Shown in pieces: positions 17,948-33,689 of a stretch of 64,000 nucleotides of DNA. The translations under genes and the position numbers were made by a program. The number at the start of each line of letters is the position of its first letter. Positions within the stretch are counted from its first letter, which is position 1. Where the stretch lies: the NCBI RefSeq assembly GCF_004137085.1, contig NZ_QYBC01000014.1:62001-126000 (forward strand), given 5' to 3'. Below the pieces are notes generated by a model that saw nothing but the letters and a program-made list of their open reading frames with translations, did not search any database and was not told the DNA's origin. The stretch is from Lichenibacterium ramalinae (GTDB lineage: Bacteria; Pseudomonadota; Alphaproteobacteria; Rhizobiales; Beijerinckiaceae).

Positions 17948-20425
17948 ATGAAATTCACCCTCTCCTGGCTCAAGGACCACCTCGACACCGAGGCCGGCCT
18001 CGCCGAGATCGCCGATGCCCTGACCCGCGTCGGCCTCGAAGTCGAAGGCATCGAGGATCCGGCCGAGCGGTTCCGCGGCTTCACGGTGGCGCGCATCATC
18101 GAGGCCGGCCAGCACCCCAACGCCGACCGGCTGCGGGTCTGCTCGGTCGACACCGGCGCGGGCAGCCCTGTGCAGGTCGTGTGCGGCGCGCCCAACGCGC
18201 GCGCCGGGCTCGTCACGGTCTTCTCGGCGCCCGGCACCTACATCCCTGGCAAGGACATGACGATCGCGTCGGGCGTGATCCGCGGCGTCGCGTCGAACGG
18301 CATGCTGTGCTCGGCTTCCGAACTCGGCCTGTCGGACGAGCAGGACGGCATCATGGAACTGCCGGAGGATGCCCGGGTCGGCACGCCCTATGGCGCCTTC
18401 GCCGGCCTCGACGACCCGGTGATCGACGTGGCGCTGACGCCGAACCGCCCCGACGCCGCCGGTGTCCACGGCATCGCGCGCGACCTCGCCGCCGTCGGCC
18501 TCGGCCGACTCAAGGAGGCGCCGGTGCCGGAGATCCGGGGCGGCTTCGCCCAGCCCGTGCCGCTGCGGCGCGAGCTCGCCGAGGCCGACGAGGCGCTGTG
18601 CCCGGCCTTCGCCCTGCGCCTGGTGCGCGGCGTCAGGAACGGGCCCGCGCCCGAATGGATGCGCCGGCGTCTCGCCGCCATCGGCCTGCGCCCCATCAAC
18701 GCGCTGGTCGACATCACCAACTACATGACCTTCGACCGCGGGCGCCCGCTGCACGTCTTCGACGCCGCCAAGGTCGAGGGCGCCGTCGTGGTGCGCCGGG
18801 CCCGCGAGGGCGAGACCCTGGCGGCGCTGAACGGCCGCAGCTACGCGCTCGACGCCTCCATGGTGGTGATCGCCGACGACGCCGGCGTCGAATCCCTCGC
18901 CGGCATCATGGGCGGCGAGGCTTCGGGCTGCGACGAGGCCACCACCGACGTGCTGATCGAGAGCGCGCTCTGGGACCCCACGACCATCGCCCAGACGGGG
19001 CGCAAGCTCGGCCTGTCCAGCGACGCGCGCTACCGGTTCGAGCGCGGCGTCGACCCGGCCTTCACGGTCCCGGGGATCGATCTGGCGACCCGGCTGGTGC
19101 TCGACCTCTGCGGCGGCGAGGCGTCCGAACTGACGCTCGACGGCGCTGTGCCGAAGCCCGACCACCGCATAGACTTCCCGCTGAGCGAGGTCCACCGCCT
19201 GACGGGGCTCGACCTGCCGGTCTCCGACATGCAGCGCATCCTGGAGCGGCTCGGCTTCGACCTCGTCGGCCACCCCGACAATGCCGACTGGATCGTGGCG
19301 CGGGTGCCGTCCTGGCGGCCGGACGTGCACGGCAAGGCCGACCTCGTCGAGGAGATCCTCCGCATCGCGGGGCTCGACCGCGTCGAATCCCAGCCCCTGC
19401 CGCGAGAGCCCGGCGTGCCGCGCCCAGTGCTGACGCTGCTGCAGAGGCGGACGCGCCTCGCCAAGCGCGTGCTCGCCGGCGAAGGCCTGCTCGAAGCCGT
19501 GACCTGGAGCTTCGTGTCCGACGAACAGGCGCGGCTCTTCGGCGGTGGCGCGCCCGAACTGCAGCTCGCCAACCCGATCGCCGCCGACCTGTCCACCATG
19601 CGGCCGAGCCTCCTGCCGGGTCTCCTGGCGGGCGCCGGGCGCAATGCGGCGCGCGGGGCTGGCGACGTGGCGCTGTTCGAGGTCGGCCAGGTGTTCCTGG
19701 GGGACGGCGAGGGCGACCAGCGGATCGCCGCGGCCGGCCTTCGCCGCGGCACCGCCAGGGCGGCCGGGGCCGGGCGCCACTGGTCCGGCCCGGCCGAGGC
19801 GGCCGGTCTCTACGATGCCAAGGCCGATGCCGTGGCGCTGATCGCGGCGCTCGGCATCACGCCGGCCGCCGTCCAGGTCGTGCCGGGCGGGCCGGACTGG
19901 CTCCACCCCGGCCGCTCGCTGACCTTCCGCATGGGCCCGAAGACCACGATCGGCTTCTGCGGCGAGGTCCATCCCGAGGTGCTGCGCCGGCTCGACGTCG
20001 CCGGCCCCGTCGCGTGTTTCGAGATCGTCCTCGACGCGCTGCCGGCCCCGAAGGCGCGGCCCACCAAGGCGCGGCCGAAGCTGGTCCTCTCCGACCTGCA
20101 GCCGGTCGAGCGCGACTTCGCCTTCCTGGTCGACCGCAAGGTGCCGGCCGGCGACCTCGTGGGCGCCGCCCAGGGGGCCGACCGGGCCCTCGTGGCGGGC
20201 GTGTCGGTCTTCGACGTCTACGACGGCAAGGGCGTGCCCGAGGGACAGAAGTCGGTCGGCCTCGCCGTCACGCTGCAGCCGCGCGACAAGACCCTGGCCG
20301 AGGCCGACCTCGAGGCGGTGAGCGCGAAGATCGTGGAAGCGGTGGCGAAGAAGGTCGGCGGGGTTCTACGATCCGATTCGCCCTCGTCCGCCACGATCTC
20401 GACGGCGCCTCCGGCAACGAGGTGA
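17948..20425 (+). CDS. pheT: Phenylalanyl-tRNA synthetase beta subunit, altered C-terminal tail
   Basis: Editing and tRNA-binding subunit of PheRS. 825 residues. Order: N-terminal EMAP-type tRNA-binding domain (FTVARIIEAGQHPNADRLRV within about 45-150), B3/B4 editing domain, B5 (two copies of the HRLTG-like fold region) and a C-terminal ferredoxin-like anticodon-binding domain (DLQPVERDFAFLVD; VGLAVTLQPRDKTL). The family usually ends just after a GGxLR-like motif; here GGVLR is followed by SDSPSSATISTAPPATR, a Ser/Thr/Pro-rich tail. The natural stop seems to have been lost where foreign DNA with an antitoxin-Doc pair joined. The enzyme should still work since the fold is complete. Confidence 0.95.
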   Translation: MKFTLSWLKDHLDTEAGLAEIADALTRVGLEVEGIEDPAERFRGFTVARIIEAGQHPNADRLRVCSVDTGAGSPVQVVCGAPNARAGLVTVFSAPGTYIPGKDMTIASGVIRGVASNGMLCSASELGLSDEQDGIMELPEDARVGTPYGAFAGLDDPVIDVALTPNRPDAAGVHGIARDLAAVGLGRLKEAPVPEIRGGFAQPVPLRRELAEADEALCPAFALRLVRGVRNGPAPEWMRRRLAAIGLRPINALVDITNYMTFDRGRPLHVFDAAKVEGAVVVRRAREGETLAALNGRSYALDASMVVIADDAGVESLAGIMGGEASGCDEATTDVLIESALWDPTTIAQTGRKLGLSSDARYRFERGVDPAFTVPGIDLATRLVLDLCGGEASELTLDGAVPKPDHRIDFPLSEVHRLTGLDLPVSDMQRILERLGFDLVGHPDNADWIVARVPSWRPDVHGKADLVEEILRIAGLDRVESQPLPREPGVPRPVLTLLQRRTRLAKRVLAGEGLLEAVTWSFVSDEQARLFGGGAPELQLANPIAADLSTMRPSLLPGLLAGAGRNAARGAGDVALFEVGQVFLGDGEGDQRIAAAGLRRGTARAAGAGRHWSGPAEAAGLYDAKADAVALIAALGITPAAVQVVPGGPDWLHPGRSLTFRMGPKTTIGFCGEVHPEVLRRLDVAGPVACFEIVLDALPAPKARPTKARPKLVLSDLQPVERDFAFLVDRKVPAGDLVGAAQGADRALVAGVSVFDVYDGKGVPEGQKSVGLAVTLQPRDKTLAEADLEAVSAKIVEAVAKKVGGVLRSDSPSSATISTAPPATR

Positions 20426-20457
20426 TTTGCGGTCGGGACGATCGAGCCCATGTTACA

Positions 20458-20473
20458 GTTGGAACTAGTCAAC
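20458..20473. promoter_or_regulatory. Candidate operator of the antitoxin-Doc pair
   Basis: An imperfect palindrome GTTGGAACTAGTCAAC with an ACTAGT core, 19 bp before the antitoxin start and in a locally AT-richer stretch. Phd-Doc-type modules usually repress themselves through such a site; this one is inferred from position only. Confidence 0.35.
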
Positions 20474-20491
20474 AGCTGAAGGTAGATCTTG

Positions 20492-20689
20492 ATGGACAGG
20501 GGGAGAGGGCACGGCACGGACCTGACAGAGTCTCTGACTCCTACAGATCATCCCGGCGAAGCGGTCGCCTGTGTGGCGACGGTCGAGCCTGGCGGCGAGA
20601 CCAAAGACGTCGATTACGAGCGCGCCATGGCCGTGTGCCTCGATGTCATGCGCGACCATCGCTCGGTTCTCGCCGCCTTGGCGAAGTGA
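20492..20689 (+). CDS. Probable antitoxin of the Doc toxin
   Basis: 65 residues. ATG at 20492 follows AAGGTAG; a TTG one codon earlier is possible. No family motif is obvious: the first half is polar, and the C-terminal YERAMAVCLDVMRDHRSVLAALAK looks like an amphipathic helix of the sort that plugs a Fic/Doc active site. The stop overlaps the doc GTG start by 4 bp. Identity as antitoxin rests on size, order and coupling to doc. Confidence 0.65.
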   Translation: MDRGRGHGTDLTESLTPTDHPGEAVACVATVEPGGETKDVDYERAMAVCLDVMRDHRSVLAALAK

Positions 20690-21081
20690 GATCAGGCGAA
20701 TCGGTCTGGCTCCCGAAGCGTGCCGTGCTGGACATGCACGCTCGGCTCCTCGCCGAGCATGGCGGTCCGCCCGGGATTCGCGACGAGGGCGCCCTAGACA
20801 GCGCACTCGCCCGGCCGTTGAATATCGCTGCATATGGCCGGCCCGACCTTGCCGATCTCGCAGCCGCATATGGCTTCGGTCTGGCGTGCAATCACGCTTT
20901 CGTCGACGGCAACAAGCGGATCTCCTTCGTCGCCTGCGTCACCTTCCTGCGATTGAACGGTTCGGATATCCCGATCGATGACATCGGCAACGTCGAAACC
21001 TGGATAGCCCTGGCTTCAGGGGCGCTGTCCGAGCCCGGGCTCGCGGCATGGCTCCGGTCCCGCATGCATTCGATCGACTGA
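20686..21081 (+). CDS. doc: Doc-family toxin (death on curing, Fic fold)
   Basis: 131 residues, the usual Doc length. The Fic/Doc catalytic motif is intact: HAFVDGNKR (H-x-F-x-D-G-N-K-R). The N-terminal VWLPKRAVLDMHARLLAEHGG and the helix GLACNHAF are typical. Doc proteins phosphorylate elongation factor Tu and stop translation until the antitoxin binds. The start is GTG at 20686, overlapping the antitoxin stop (GTGA). The pair lies directly behind the altered end of pheT and before a MITE-like element. Confidence 0.92.
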   Translation: MRSGESVWLPKRAVLDMHARLLAEHGGPPGIRDEGALDSALARPLNIAAYGRPDLADLAAAYGFGLACNHAFVDGNKRISFVACVTFLRLNGSDIPIDDIGNVETWIALASGALSEPGLAAWLRSRMHSID

Positions 21082-29599: not shown

Positions 29600-30538
29600 T
29601 CAGGGCGGATCGAGCAGGCCGAGCAGTCCCGAGGCGGCGACGGCGGCGAGGCCGAGGGCCAGCACCCACCGGGTCTGGACGGTCAGGCGCGCCGCCGCAT
29701 CCCGGTCCGCGGCGAGGCGCGGCACGAGCCGGTAGCGGTTCACCAGTGCCAGGGTCGCCATGGCGACGGCGAGCAGCAGCTTCAGCGTCAGGACCTGCCC
29801 GTAGGCGCTGCCCACCGGGTCGCCGGGCCAGCCCCCGATGAGGGCGGCGTCGAGCGTGCCCGAGGCGACGAGGAGGGCGACGACGCCGTGGCCGGCCGCC
29901 GAGAAGCGCCGCAGGGCCAGGGCCGCCGCTCCGGCCCCGGGGTCGCGCCCGAGCAGCGCCATGAGACGCAGCACTTCCGGCAGGCTGCCCATCCAGGCGC
30001 CGCCGGCGAGCAGGTGCAGGGCCAGCGCCGGCGCGGCGACGCTCCGGCCCGGCATGGCGGCGGCATGGCCCGACAGGGCGAGGCTCGCCAGGGCCAGCCC
30101 GGCCGCGAGGGTCCACATGGCGGCACTGCTCGACACGATGTCTTTGGCGACCGTCTTGGACGGTGCCGGGTCGGACGAGAGGGGCGCGTCTCGCCGCAGC
30201 GCCACGGCGGCGGCGAACAGCAGCGTCGCGCCGCATTGCACAGCCCAGGCCCGCCCTGTCGCGGTGCCGGAGGCGGCGGCGAGCAGCGTCCCGGCATCGA
30301 GCGCGGCGCCCCAGCCGTCATCGAAGGCGGCCGCCTGCGCCGGCAGGCGGAGCAGGGCGGCGAGGAGGGCGATGGGCGCCGTGCAGGCCGCGAGCCGTCC
30401 GGCCCGCCGCGCCGCGTCGCGCCGGAGCGCCGACGGCACGGCCGCCGTCGCGAAGAGGCCGGCGCCGAACGCCAGCATCAGGGCCCCGTCCCCGACGGCG
30501 CGGCACAGGGCGAGAGCCGCGGTCGGGGACGCGATCAT
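29600..30538 (-). CDS. copD: CopD-family copper resistance membrane protein
   Basis: 312 residues, about eight hydrophobic segments, inner membrane. Conserved family features include the LHLLAGGAWMGSLPEV stretch and SGHAAA in the loop between helices. CopD works with periplasmic CopC in copper uptake or handling. The start is either ATG 30538 or GTG 30544; the latter overlaps the copC stop as GTGA, so translation is coupled in both cases. Confidence 0.87.
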   Translation of the reverse strand: MIASPTAALALCRAVGDGALMLAFGAGLFATAAVPSALRRDAARRAGRLAACTAPIALLAALLRLPAQAAAFDDGWGAALDAGTLLAAASGTATGRAWAVQCGATLLFAAAVALRRDAPLSSDPAPSKTVAKDIVSSSAAMWTLAAGLALASLALSGHAAAMPGRSVAAPALALHLLAGGAWMGSLPEVLRLMALLGRDPGAGAAALALRRFSAAGHGVVALLVASGTLDAALIGGWPGDPVGSAYGQVLTLKLLLAVAMATLALVNRYRLVPRLAADRDAAARLTVQTRWVLALGLAAVAASGLLGLLDPP

Positions 30539-30540
30539 GG

Positions 30541-30945
30541 TCACGGAGCGACGGTGAAGCGGTAATGGCCGGCGGTCCTGTGCCCGTCGGTGGCGACGGC
30601 GTGCCACTCCACCGTGTAGGCGCCCGGCACCAGCCGGCCCGTCACCGGGACGGTGAGGCGAGCGGGATCGCCGTCGCCGAGGCGTCCCGGCCCGGTCGCC
30701 ACCGCGGCGTCGTCCGGGCCCGTCACGGCGACGCCCGAGAACCTGAGTTCGAGCCCCTCGGTGAACTGCAGCACGAGCTGGGCCGGCGCCGCCGCGGTGC
30801 CGCCGGCGGCGGGGATGGCGGCGGTGAGGTGGGCGTGGGCGGCGGCGGGGGCGGCCCAGCCGACGGCGCCGGCGACCGCGAGGGCGAGCGAACCCGCCCG
30901 GGTGCCGGAGGAGGGGAGGGCGCGGCGGAGATGGCGGAGGCTCAT
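30541..30945 (-). CDS. copC: Periplasmic copper-binding protein CopC
   Basis: 134 residues with a Sec signal peptide ending in PAAAHAHL, so the mature protein begins with His, which binds Cu(II) in the family. A beta-sandwich with the C-terminal VEWHAVATDGHRTAGHYRF supplies the other ligands. It is followed by copD in one operon. The upstream gap is the long region before dnaA, so the two genes diverge. Confidence 0.9.
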   Translation of the reverse strand: MSLRHLRRALPSSGTRAGSLALAVAGAVGWAAPAAAHAHLTAAIPAAGGTAAAPAQLVLQFTEGLELRFSGVAVTGPDDAAVATGPGRLGDGDPARLTVPVTGRLVPGAYTVEWHAVATDGHRTAGHYRFTVAP

Positions 30946-31069
30946 CGGGGGCTCTGGGGTTCACGATGCTGCGTCGTGGCCCGGGGCGCACCCTCGGGGC
31001 CGTGCCGGTCCTACACGATCGGGCGGCGCGCCGCGCCGGCCGAAACCGCTCCGGAGGATGCCAAGAGGC

Positions 31070-31640
31070 CGTCGCGGGTTATCAACAGGTCGTTCACGAT
31101 AACGGTGGAAAGATTTGTTAACCGTTCCGGCCGCGCAGGGGAAAACCAGCTGAATCAGACGGTTAACGGCCAAGGCCGGATTCAGCCCGCCAAGATCGGC
31201 ATTGACCGCCGGGAATCGCCGACCCGCCGCGCCGCAATGGCCGATGGGGAGTGAATGTCGCATGTCAACCACAGCCCGCCGTTATCCCGTTGGAATCGCG
31301 GCCGTTAGGGACTGTGGCGGGAGGCGGGCGGTTTCCGGGAATCGGCGGCGCGGTCCCGGGCGCGACGGATTCGTGACATGATCCGGTTGCCTGCCCTCAG
31401 ACCCATGTGTAGCTTCAATTCATCGCCGCGGCGCCGGCCACCGCCCCGCAACGGCAGATCTCTCAGAATCGTGACGATGCCCCACGCAGTCCATGGCCAA
31501 GACCATGACTCGGGGTTTCTTCTATCGGGTGAGGACGATGTTGGAGGGTGAGGGTCAGATTCGTTTCTGAGTCTAGGGTTATTGATAGGGGTCGATCGAT
31601 CATTTGAGGTCCGAGGCCGGATTCTCGACAGTGATTCGTG
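31070..31640. promoter_or_regulatory. GANTC-rich, origin-like or dnaA regulatory region
   Basis: The 942 bp between copC and dnaA (30946-31887) hold no supported gene. Within 31152-31637 there are 12 GANTC sites: 31152, 31179, 31213, 31293, 31339, 31368, 31466, 31507, 31558, 31569, 31620 and 31633. At this GC content one or two would be expected. An inverted pair of TTAACCGT (31118-31125 and 31159-31166) resembles CtrA half sites, and a near DnaA box TTATCAACA lies at 31079-31087. GANTC is the target of CcrM, which ties methylation to replication in alphaproteobacteria. The stretch 31500-31600 is relatively AT-rich. Whether this is the origin or only the dnaA promoter is undecided; only one near DnaA box is visible. 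Confidence 0.6.
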
Positions 31641-31651
31641 AGGAGGCGCGC

Positions 31652-31723
31652 ATGGTCCATCATCGACAGGCTCCGCGTCTTCGCCGGTTCCGACGGGTGC
31701 ATCCCCGCGCGACCCTGGCCTGA
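31652..31723 (+). CDS. Possible 23-aa leader peptide upstream of dnaA
   Basis: A short frame reading [16 protein letters not shown] and on to a stop at 31721-31723, basic with eight Arg and three His. A near-perfect ribosome binding site AGGAGG lies 5 bases before the ATG, stronger than that of dnaA itself. It is 164 bp upstream of dnaA on the same strand. Whether it is translated is unknown. Confidence 0.3.
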
Positions 31724-31887
31724 CCGCGGCTCCGGGCCGTCCGCGCCCGTCTCGGAAGGCCACCCGAGACGATGCGCGGCGCGCCCCGGCCGCCAGACGG
31801 CGCCCGAGCCCGGCAGGGGCTTCGGGCAAACGCTTTTCCGGTTTGAGATGCGGCAAACATCCCACGCCAGAAAGAATACGATCCATC

Positions 31888-33444
31888 ATGACAGCGCGAA
31901 ACGATGCCCCCTGCTTCGTGGACCCGACCGCCGATCTCCGCGAAACCGTCGCGCCGCTTCAGCCTTCCCGTGAATCGCTGGGGGGCCTGAGTCCGGCCAC
32001 CCGTACCGAGCAATGGTCCAACGCCTGCCGCCGCCTGCGGGCCGAACTCGGCGAAGCCGTGTTCAGCGCCTGGTTCGCCCGGCTCGACCTCGACCGGATC
32101 GAGGACGACACCGCCTATCTCACGGTCCCGACCAACTTCCTGAAGACCTGGATCCAGTCGCACTACGTCGACAAGCTGTGCGCCACGCTGGCCGCCGAAG
32201 CCCCCGAGGTGAAGCGCTGCATCGTGGCGCTGCGCTCCTCGACGCGCGCCGCCGCGCCGAAGCCCGAGGTTTCGGCGGCGGCGGCCGAGGCCGCCCCGGA
32301 GGCGAAATCCGTCTCGGCGCCGCGCGCCGCCGCCCAGGCCAAGTGGGAGTCGAACGCCAAGGCCAGCGGTGCCGCGCCGGCCGGGATGCCCGCCGATGCG
32401 CTGAGCGGCTCCCCGCTCGACCGTCGCCTGACCTTCGGCAACTTCGTCGTCGGCCGGTCGAACCAGCTCGCCTGCGCGGCGGCGCAGCGCGTGGCCGAGG
32501 CCGCTCCGGGCGCCGCGCCGGTCTACAGCCCGCTCTACATCCACGCCGCCGTCGGCCTCGGCAAGACGCATCTCCTGCAGGCCACCGCCCATGCCGTGAC
32601 GGACGGCGGCCGGCGCGTGATCTACCTCACGGCCGAGCGCTTCATGTACGGCTTCGTGGCGGCCCTGAAGGCCCAGACCTCCATCGCCTTCAAGGAGAAG
32701 CTGCGCGCCATCGACGTCCTGATCATCGACGACGTGCAGTTCCTGCAGGGCAAGTCCATCCAGACCGAGTTCTGCCACACGCTGAACGCGTTGATCGACG
32801 ACGGCCGGCAGGTCATCGTGGCGGCCGACCGCCCGCCCGCGGACCTCGAATCCCTCGACGAGCGGGTGCGCTCGCGCCTGGCCGGCGGGCTCTGCGTCGA
32901 GATGGAGACGCTGGACGAGACGCTGCGCGTCAAGATCCTGGAGAACCGCGTCCAGGCGGCGCGGGCCCTGCACCCGGGCTTCGCCCTGACGCCGGCCGTG
33001 ATGGCCTATGTGGCGCGGGCCATCGCCACCAATGGGCGCGACCTCGACGGTGCCGTGAACCGGCTGATGGCCCATGCCACGCTGTCGGGAACGGCCCACA
33101 CGGTCGAGACCGCGGAGGCGGCGATCCGCGACCTCGTGCGCCTGCGCGAGCCCAAGCGGGTGAAGATCGAGGACATCCAGAAGCTCGTCGCCAACCACTA
33201 CAACGTCAGCCGCGCCGACATCCTGTCGTCGCGCCGCACCGCCGTGGTGGTGCGGCCCCGGCAGATCGCCATGTACCTGTCGAAGGCGCTGACGCTGCGC
33301 TCGCTGCCCGAGATCGGCCGCCGTTTCGGGGGGCGCGACCACACGACCGTGCTGCATGCCGTGCGCAAGATCGAGGCGCTGAGCGGCAAGGAGGCGGCGC
33401 TGGCCGAGGAGCTCGAACTGCTGAAGCGGCTGCTCCAGGACTGA
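31888..33444 (+). CDS. dnaA: Chromosomal replication initiator DnaA
   Basis: Binds DnaA boxes and opens the origin. 518 residues: N-terminal DnaB-interaction domain ([21 protein letters not shown], in parts), a variable Ala-rich linker at about 110-175, the AAA+ core with Walker [12 protein letters not shown] near 220 and Walker [11 protein letters not shown], and the C-terminal helix-turn-helix with [16 protein letters not shown]. The start at ATG 31888 follows AGAAAGA. dnaN and recF are not downstream; an MltB-type enzyme follows instead, and rpsT is not adjacent. Confidence 0.97.
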
Positions 33445-33453
33445 CGCCGAAGC

Positions 33454-33485
33454 GGCGCCGGGGCGGTCGACGCCGCCCCGGCGCC
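33454..33485 (+). terminator. GC-rich hairpin after dnaA
   Basis: GGCGCCGGGGCGG (33454-33466) pairs perfectly with CCGCCCCGGCGCC (33473-33485), loop TCGACG, 10 bp after the dnaA stop. No U-tract. The rest of the 245-bp gap shows no supported gene. Confidence 0.6.
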
Positions 33486-33689
33486 CCCAACGCGATGACA
33501 CTGCTCCCGTTTCCGAGCCGGGGCGGAGGCGCCGACGGCCGAGGCGCTCCCGGGCAGAAGGAACGTGCAAAGCCGGCCGCGGTTGTGTAGGGGTCGGTCC
33601 GGGACGGGGGCGGAGCGTGCTTCGCCGGACTCGCGTCCCGAGTCGCGACCCCGCCGTCTCCGGCCCGGCCGCCACAGCCGAGGAGTTCC

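Follow-up and report, generated by a model that had tools for sequence, protein, structure and literature searches.

A dense GANTC array upstream of dnaA in Lichenibacterium ramalinae and its counterpart at the probable hemE-type origin

The region upstream of dnaA

The stretch of DNA that we analysed, hereafter the window, comprises 64 kb at 71.8% GC and sits on contig C34 of the 5.8 Mb draft genome of Lichenibacterium ramalinae, whose genus is lichen-associated. It carries a dnaA gene whose protein has a single match in its own genome and whose matched part is 88% identical to the DnaA of Lichenibacterium minor, the closest among the matches listed and a species placed in the Lichenihabitantaceae, Hyphomicrobiales. 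Upstream of this gene lies an intergenic region with the following features:

30541..30945, minus strand: copC-like gene, the upstream limit of the intergenic region
31077..31123, plus strand: conserved block with a near DnaA box TTATCAACA (31079, one mismatch) and a TTAACC half-site (31118)
31152..31637, no strand assigned: GANTC array of 12 putative CcrM sites (from counts, shuffles and a sample scan), starting at 31152, 31179, 31213, 31293, 31339, 31368, 31466, 31507, 31558, 31569, 31620 and 31633
31161..31166, minus strand: second TTAACC half-site, in opposite orientation to the first and not conserved in L. minor
31179, 31213, 31293, 31339, 31466, 31507, 31569 and 31633, no strand assigned: GANTC sites shared with L. 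minor by alignment
31888..33444, plus strand: dnaA, 518 aa, with DnaA_N, Bac_DnaA and Bac_DnaA_C

The dnaA start is the ATG at 31888, and the last GANTC site ends 250 bp before it. An earlier note on this DNA had listed the 12 sites, each of which proved exact on recount, and had described an inverted motif and a near DnaA box, which correspond to the opposed TTAACC half-sites at 31118 and 31161 and to TTATCAACA at 31079; the block that holds the near box is identical in L. minor at 41 of its 47 bases. The note's view that the region contains no gene agrees with our scan of the six open reading frames of at least 90 aa that overlap the array or its edges, none of which has a Pfam match. The AT-richer stretch that it mentioned is present but weak, since the most AT-rich 40 bp upstream of dnaA contain at most 24 A+T, compared with 29 of 40 at hemE. 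A scan of the array region for promoters and terminators found nothing, and in particular no sigma-70-like promoter. A non-coding RNA at the array was dropped as a candidate because an Rfam scan of positions 30000-33500, up to E 0.1, gave no match.

GANTC is depleted in the window and concentrated in the array

The window contains 67 GANTC sites, fewer than the 164 expected from its composition and fewer than the mean of 262 in its dinucleotide shuffles, and the motif is therefore depleted. The density within 31152-31637 is nonetheless 24.7 per kb, whereas the remainder of the window has 0.87 per kb. When 31138-31660 was shuffled 5000 times with dinucleotides preserved, the mean count was 3.4 and the maximum 11, so that no shuffle gave 12. 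One or two sites by chance had been the earlier estimate, and this holds for the composition expectation of the region, 1.8, with the shuffle mean somewhat higher.

We next consider a sample of the genome comprising 576,613 of 5,798,877 bases (9.9%), which is non-random in that it consists of the whole contigs bearing dnaA and hemE together with stretches of other contigs. Only two places in this sample reach at least six GANTC per 496 bp, one upstream of dnaA (12) and the other upstream of hemE (7). A similar density in many intergenic regions, raised in the earlier note as a possible objection, is thus not seen in this 9.9% of the genome. As controls we used seven palindromes with the same composition as GANTC. 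Their maximum is 8 per 496 bp, and the palindromes that reach 7 or 8 are mostly commoner than GANTC. Over all seven motifs there are five clusters of this size, one of which (TCNGA, 7) falls within the dnaA array itself. Since no control exceeds 8, the dnaA array is distinctive by its size; since some controls reach 7-8, the hemE count of 7 is unremarkable by size alone, and that array is distinctive by its place and conservation.

These counts bear on whether the array is simply a by-product of GANTC being tolerated between genes and depleted within them. GANTC has been reported as under-represented overall and over-represented in intergenic DNA (PMC3973325), and the depletion in the window is of the same kind. 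Against such an origin for the array stand the restriction of dense clusters to just two places in the sample and the conservation of site positions, with N free to vary at some of them, as described below. We consider a by-product most improbable.

Site positions are conserved in relatives, and the array stays with dnaA

The regions upstream of dnaA in L. ramalinae and L. minor align with 68.5% identity over 793 columns. L. minor has 10 GANTC sites there, eight of them in common with the window, and at two of these (31569 and 31633) the N is the sole difference between the species. At dnaA, 8 of 12 GANTC sites are shared compared with 9 of 25 control-palindrome sites (p 0.16), and at hemE 6 of 7 compared with 5 of 9 (p 0.31); neither locus is significant alone, while pooling the two gives p 0.04.

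An alignment of 28 Microvirga dnaA upstream regions shows the same tendency at greater depth, with a mean of 9.8 GANTC per sequence versus 1.2-5.2 for the controls, and with GANTC occupying at least half of the rows in eight columns, versus 0-2 columns for each control palindrome. Mean column entropy is 0.21-0.31 at the four fixed letters, 0.46 at N and 0.79 over the whole region, but this comparison is biased because the columns were picked for being GANTC, which makes the column counts the fairer test. The gene on the far side of the array is copC here and rpsT in Microvirga sp. VF16. Because the neighbour differs, we conclude that the array travels with dnaA and not with the neighbouring gene.

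A second array lies at hemE, the most probable site of the origin

In L. ramalinae, hemE is on contig C28 with a divergent Kinase-PPPase gene (PF03618) upstream, which we take to be the COG1806 gene. Directly upstream of hemE is the second GANTC array (7 per 500 bp), and the stretch between the two genes contains three TCCACA cores and an AT-rich element with 29 A+T in 40, within which lie GATTC repeats and which a GACTC adjoins. GATTC is also found within the corresponding element of L. minor and of most of the Microvirga listed. In Caulobacter, hemE and the COG1806 gene are described as flanking the origin, which contains DnaA boxes and an AT-rich region of 40 bp (PMC1914354). Judged by its sequence, the L. 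ramalinae hemE locus has the layout of a Caulobacter-type oriC, which would place a probable oriC at about 34.6-35.0 kb of C28. Two parS-like sites lie on the same contig, 38-41 kb beyond the hemE stretch. The 64-kb window contains none with up to three mismatches. The ccrM gene is also on C28, about 17 kb from hemE (L136, 1330-2514).

The dnaA array, flanked by copC and dnaA, is not in the hemE/Kinase-PPPase setting, and its region has one near DnaA box and no TCCACA core. Given the gene pair, the three cores and the AT-rich element at hemE, and the poorer dnaA region, the origin in this genome is most probably at hemE. The earlier note had proposed that the array might be the chromosomal origin, and in a broader form this proposal would make the dnaA-upstream array the origin or, failing that, a second active one. 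Many bacteria do have their origin beside dnaA, the GANTC density at dnaA is no lower than that at hemE, and the region upstream of dnaA in VF16 has a perfect TTATCCACA box and two more TCCACA cores. Furthermore, GC skew along C34 and C28 shows no clear origin-like switch at either dnaA or hemE; on C28 there is no change from negative to positive at hemE, the skew being mixed and then mostly negative at 80-170 kb.

The complete chromosome of VF16 offers a check. Its record has dnaA at the start and hemE at 199.8 kb, with parS-like sites at 208.5 and 210.6 kb, that is, 9-11 kb from hemE. Mean raw GC skew is -0.0058 to the left of dnaA (10 sampled stretches; -0.0100 in the 100 kb before dnaA) and -0.0136 over the 0-180 kb after it (s.e. 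0.0033, 9 stretches), then turns to +0.0069 at 180-300 kb (s.e. 0.0033, 6 stretches) and +0.0155 beyond (10 sampled stretches). The skew therefore switches near hemE, approximately 200 kb from dnaA, although this is support rather than proof because the effect is small and the strand deltas at third codon positions, which agree only weakly with the raw skew, are noisy. A skew switch far from the array combined with a lack of site conservation had been named in the earlier note as telling against it; the distant switch is seen in VF16, but the sites are conserved. Among 40 stretches of 20 kb from VF16 (800 kb), at least 7 GANTC per 500 bp occur solely at dnaA (13) and hemE (10). Exact TTAA-N7-TTAA CtrA motifs number two upstream of VF16 hemE, with none upstream of VF16 dnaA and none in the L. 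ramalinae hemE region.

On the strength of the hemE locus, the box content of the two regions and the VF16 skew, we reject an origin at dnaA as very unlikely. The suggestion of a chromosomal origin is better transferred to hemE, which has the cores, the AT-rich element and an array of its own.

A CcrM-like methylase and GcrA are encoded in the genome

The genome encodes one PF01555 methylase, which is CcrM-like and has a RAMA domain. Its best NCBIfam match is the CcrM model (NF050803, 593.8 bits, E 8.7e-179), at a score below the model's cut-off of 830 bits, which none of the 86 genomes of our class survey reaches either, and its best PDB match is 6pbd, CcrM. For GcrA, one open frame matches the family in two pieces, and another place gives a partial match. 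Upstream of ccrM and gcrA there are 2 GANTC per 500 bp each; in relatives, the counts are 3-5 upstream of gcrA (5 per 500 bp in L. minor) and 0-4 in the 600 bp upstream of the ccrM domain match. Some sites are thus present at these genes, yet no arrays of the size seen at dnaA.

The presence of a GcrA family match raises an explanation in which the array works through GcrA alone, as one or more methylation-dependent promoters feeding dnaA in the manner of the few-site Caulobacter promoters and uncoupled from oriC. GcrA-like sites have the context YGAKTC, which on one strand is found at 8 of the 12 sites of the dnaA array and at 1 of the 7 in the hemE array; the former count is weak evidence and no more than chance, because about half of all GANTC fit. 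GcrA has been reported to favour promoters with fully or hemi-methylated GANTC (PMC8116508), which is consistent with this explanation. However, the sites extend over 486 bp, seemingly more than one promoter needs, and the matching hemE array fits the context poorly. We therefore see GcrA acting alone as unlikely, though less so than an origin at dnaA. The other proposal of the earlier note was a strongly methylation-gated dnaA promoter; its regulatory part is supported by the encoded CcrM-like methylase and GcrA, the conserved site positions and the retention of the array beside dnaA despite the change of neighbour, with the gating itself putative.

Paired arrays are frequent in the clade and patchy across the class

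We surveyed a clade set of 31 genomes, hand-chosen from 80 dnaA loci listed plus the window and holding 23 of the 28 Microvirga loci; the CcrM search within this set covered 4 of the 31 genomes. At least six GANTC per 500 bp are present at both dnaA and hemE in 25 of the 31. In the 23 Microvirga, the mean at dnaA is 9.6 (range 5-13 per 500 bp), above all seven controls in 22 genomes, and the mean at hemE is likewise 9.6 (range 7-12), above all seven controls in every genome. The six exceptions are Methylocapsa, Beijerinckia, Chelatococcus, Rhodoblastus 17X3, one Microvirga (5 GANTC at dnaA, 9 at hemE) and Methylobacterium variabile. The last of these keeps the hemE array (7) with only 1 GANTC per 500 bp at dnaA, from which it follows that the two arrays are separable in evolution. 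GANTC was also noticed in the AT-rich element of hemE in this species (L338).

For the class as a whole, we took 86 genomes, with nearly all of their families represented once, and obtained 75 dnaA and 67 hemE upstream stretches, leaving out rows with no match, a weak match, a match at a contig edge or a stretch that was not obtained; three of the stretches used are shorter than 1200 bp (G008, G014, G043). Genomes were scored CcrM-negative if they had no match at E 1e-60 (21 of 86), to which we added G012, whose match reaches just 269 bits, while G053, whose CcrM frame contains a stop, was scored positive; gaps in draft assemblies may have placed some genomes wrongly among the negatives. With relatedness ignored throughout, at least six GANTC per 500 bp are found at dnaA in 12 of 56 CcrM-positive versus 1 of 19 CcrM-negative genomes (Fisher p 0.16), at hemE in 14 of 52 versus 1 of 15 (Fisher p 0.16), and in the pooled data in 26 of 108 versus 2 of 34 (p 0.02), and a rank test of the GANTC excess over controls gives p 0.014 at dnaA and 0.18 at hemE. 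Control palindromes reach 6 in 32 of 994 cases. Both arrays occur together in 3 of 61 paired genomes, L. ramalinae among them, and the class-wide distribution is patchy.

The AT-rich element at hemE shows a related pattern. Within the most AT-rich 70 bp at most 400 bp from hemE, GANTC is present in 24 of 52 CcrM-positive genomes versus 3-11 of 52 for each control motif, and in 3 of 15 CcrM-negative genomes versus 0-3 for the controls; the comparison of CcrM-positive with CcrM-negative genomes gives p 0.08. One genome without a CcrM match at E 1e-60 (G030, L235) has 8 GANTC per 500 bp upstream of hemE, and may have another GANTC methylase, a recent loss of CcrM or an assembly gap.

A possible role in timing initiation, and its likeness to known systems

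What we observe directly is that there are two arrays, that they recur in relatives with site positions conserved, that such arrays are rare in the sample, and that the genome has genes for a CcrM-like methylase and GcrA. The reading that we prefer, and hold to be probable without being secure, is that CcrM gates a dnaA regulatory region and that this region is paired with an oriC rich in CcrM sites, in a layout like that of the Dam and SeqA targets. CcrM would methylate the GANTC sites of both arrays, and passage of the replication fork would leave both hemimethylated, a state that would end when CcrM acts late in the cycle. While it lasts, this state could alter dnaA transcription, with GcrA or some other protein that senses methylation as the mediator, and together with it the firing or melting of the origin, such that dnaA and the origin would be held and released jointly and initiation limited to once per cycle. 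In Caulobacter, hemimethylation is reported to persist until late in the cycle and to be most prolonged close to the origin (PMC3708114, PMC11514494). According to a modelling paper, Cori must be methylated before Caulobacter can begin another replication round (PMC2217572), and according to PMC6090056 CcrM is not required for replication initiation; as of 2013, no methylation-dependent regulator of dnaA was known, as stated in PMC3708114.

The closest parallel in layout is the Dam/SeqA system of Escherichia coli, where an orphan adenine methylase likewise has sites at the origin as well as at the dnaA promoter. We counted 11 GATC in E. coli oriC and 9 in the 500 bp upstream of dnaA; the published figures for oriC and the dnaA promoter, whose GATC sites SeqA reads, are 11 and 8 (PMC10073500). 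The unwinding 13-mers GATCTNTTNTTTT of E. coli begin with a methylation site (PMC1914354); in L. ramalinae, too, the AT-rich element contains a putative methylation site, GATTC. Unlike the GANTC and CcrM found here, however, the E. coli site is GATC and its enzyme Dam, and CcrM acts late in the Caulobacter cycle whereas Dam acts throughout (PMC6090056). GATC is also common in E. coli (13.1 per kb in two stretches), while GANTC is rare here, and the E. coli dnaA gene itself has 12 GATC in one 500-bp window, so that the upstream count is not a local peak. For this reason the resemblance is one of layout and not of contrast with the surroundings, and it extends to layout only, not to the proteins. 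Seen as an analogy, the layout resembles the E. coli arrangement against premature chromosome copying, and if our preferred reading is true, the paired arrays would be a convergent counterpart of Dam/SeqA.

A stronger form of this reading holds that Microvirga and Lichenibacterium convergently evolved origin sequestration based on CcrM and GANTC, in which a protein yet to be discovered, or else GcrA acting in a new capacity, would read the hemimethylated oriC and dnaA arrays at once, and methylation of the GATTC-bearing unwinding element would directly tune melting. We offer this form tentatively, as doubtful.

Other known systems share single features with the paired arrays. The Caulobacter dnaA promoter also combines a CcrM-type enzyme with GANTC upstream of dnaA, yet a single putative site is described there, compared with 12 sites and a matching oriC array here. 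Mutation of this single putative site caused no significant change of activity according to PMC3885167, and PMC3973325 reports a small but significant effect. In repABC replicons, CcrM sites crowd both a replication origin and a promoter that drives a replication regulator (PMC6090056, PMC11514494), and control by hemimethylation has been proposed as a model for the RepC-dependent ori2 of Agrobacterium (PMC11514494); these are, however, secondary replicons with RepC and not a DnaA-dependent chromosome. Conserved non-coding clusters of orphan-methylase motifs have been described at origins (PMC4752239), but the motifs named there are GATC, TTAA, CTCGAG and a haloarchaeal CTAG motif, with GANTC not among them.

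The depletion of GANTC within genes and its enrichment between them (PMC3973325), GANTC-rich repABC origins (PMC6090056) and a coarse rise of GANTC around ori, the last reported for four alphaproteobacterial orders at 100 bins per chromosome (PMC9836097), are thus already known, and at that bin size the oriC and dnaA arrays are not resolved. Among the literature matches listed, drawn mainly from open-access papers, there is no report of paired GANTC arrays at a hemE-type oriC and dnaA, and the pairing may be new. The question that the arrays address is whether CcrM methylation limits initiation on the main chromosome in Alphaproteobacteria; at the Caulobacter dnaA promoter, little or no effect has been reported. 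A direct test has a natural system in this clade, whose members mostly carry 7-13 CcrM sites at oriC as well as at the dnaA promoter.

Smaller GANTC clusters

Two clusters of five GANTC were noticed in addition. In the window, five sites fall within about 400 bp at 20375-20779, at the 3' end of pheT and just beyond, where an open reading frame ends in a sequence that, judged by eye, appears Doc-like (death-on-curing toxin family). On C28, at about 79-80 kb (L126, 18643-19935), five sites lie in the 500 bp from approximately 79.9 kb, where a DUF4167 gene begins, about 4 kb from a parS-like site.
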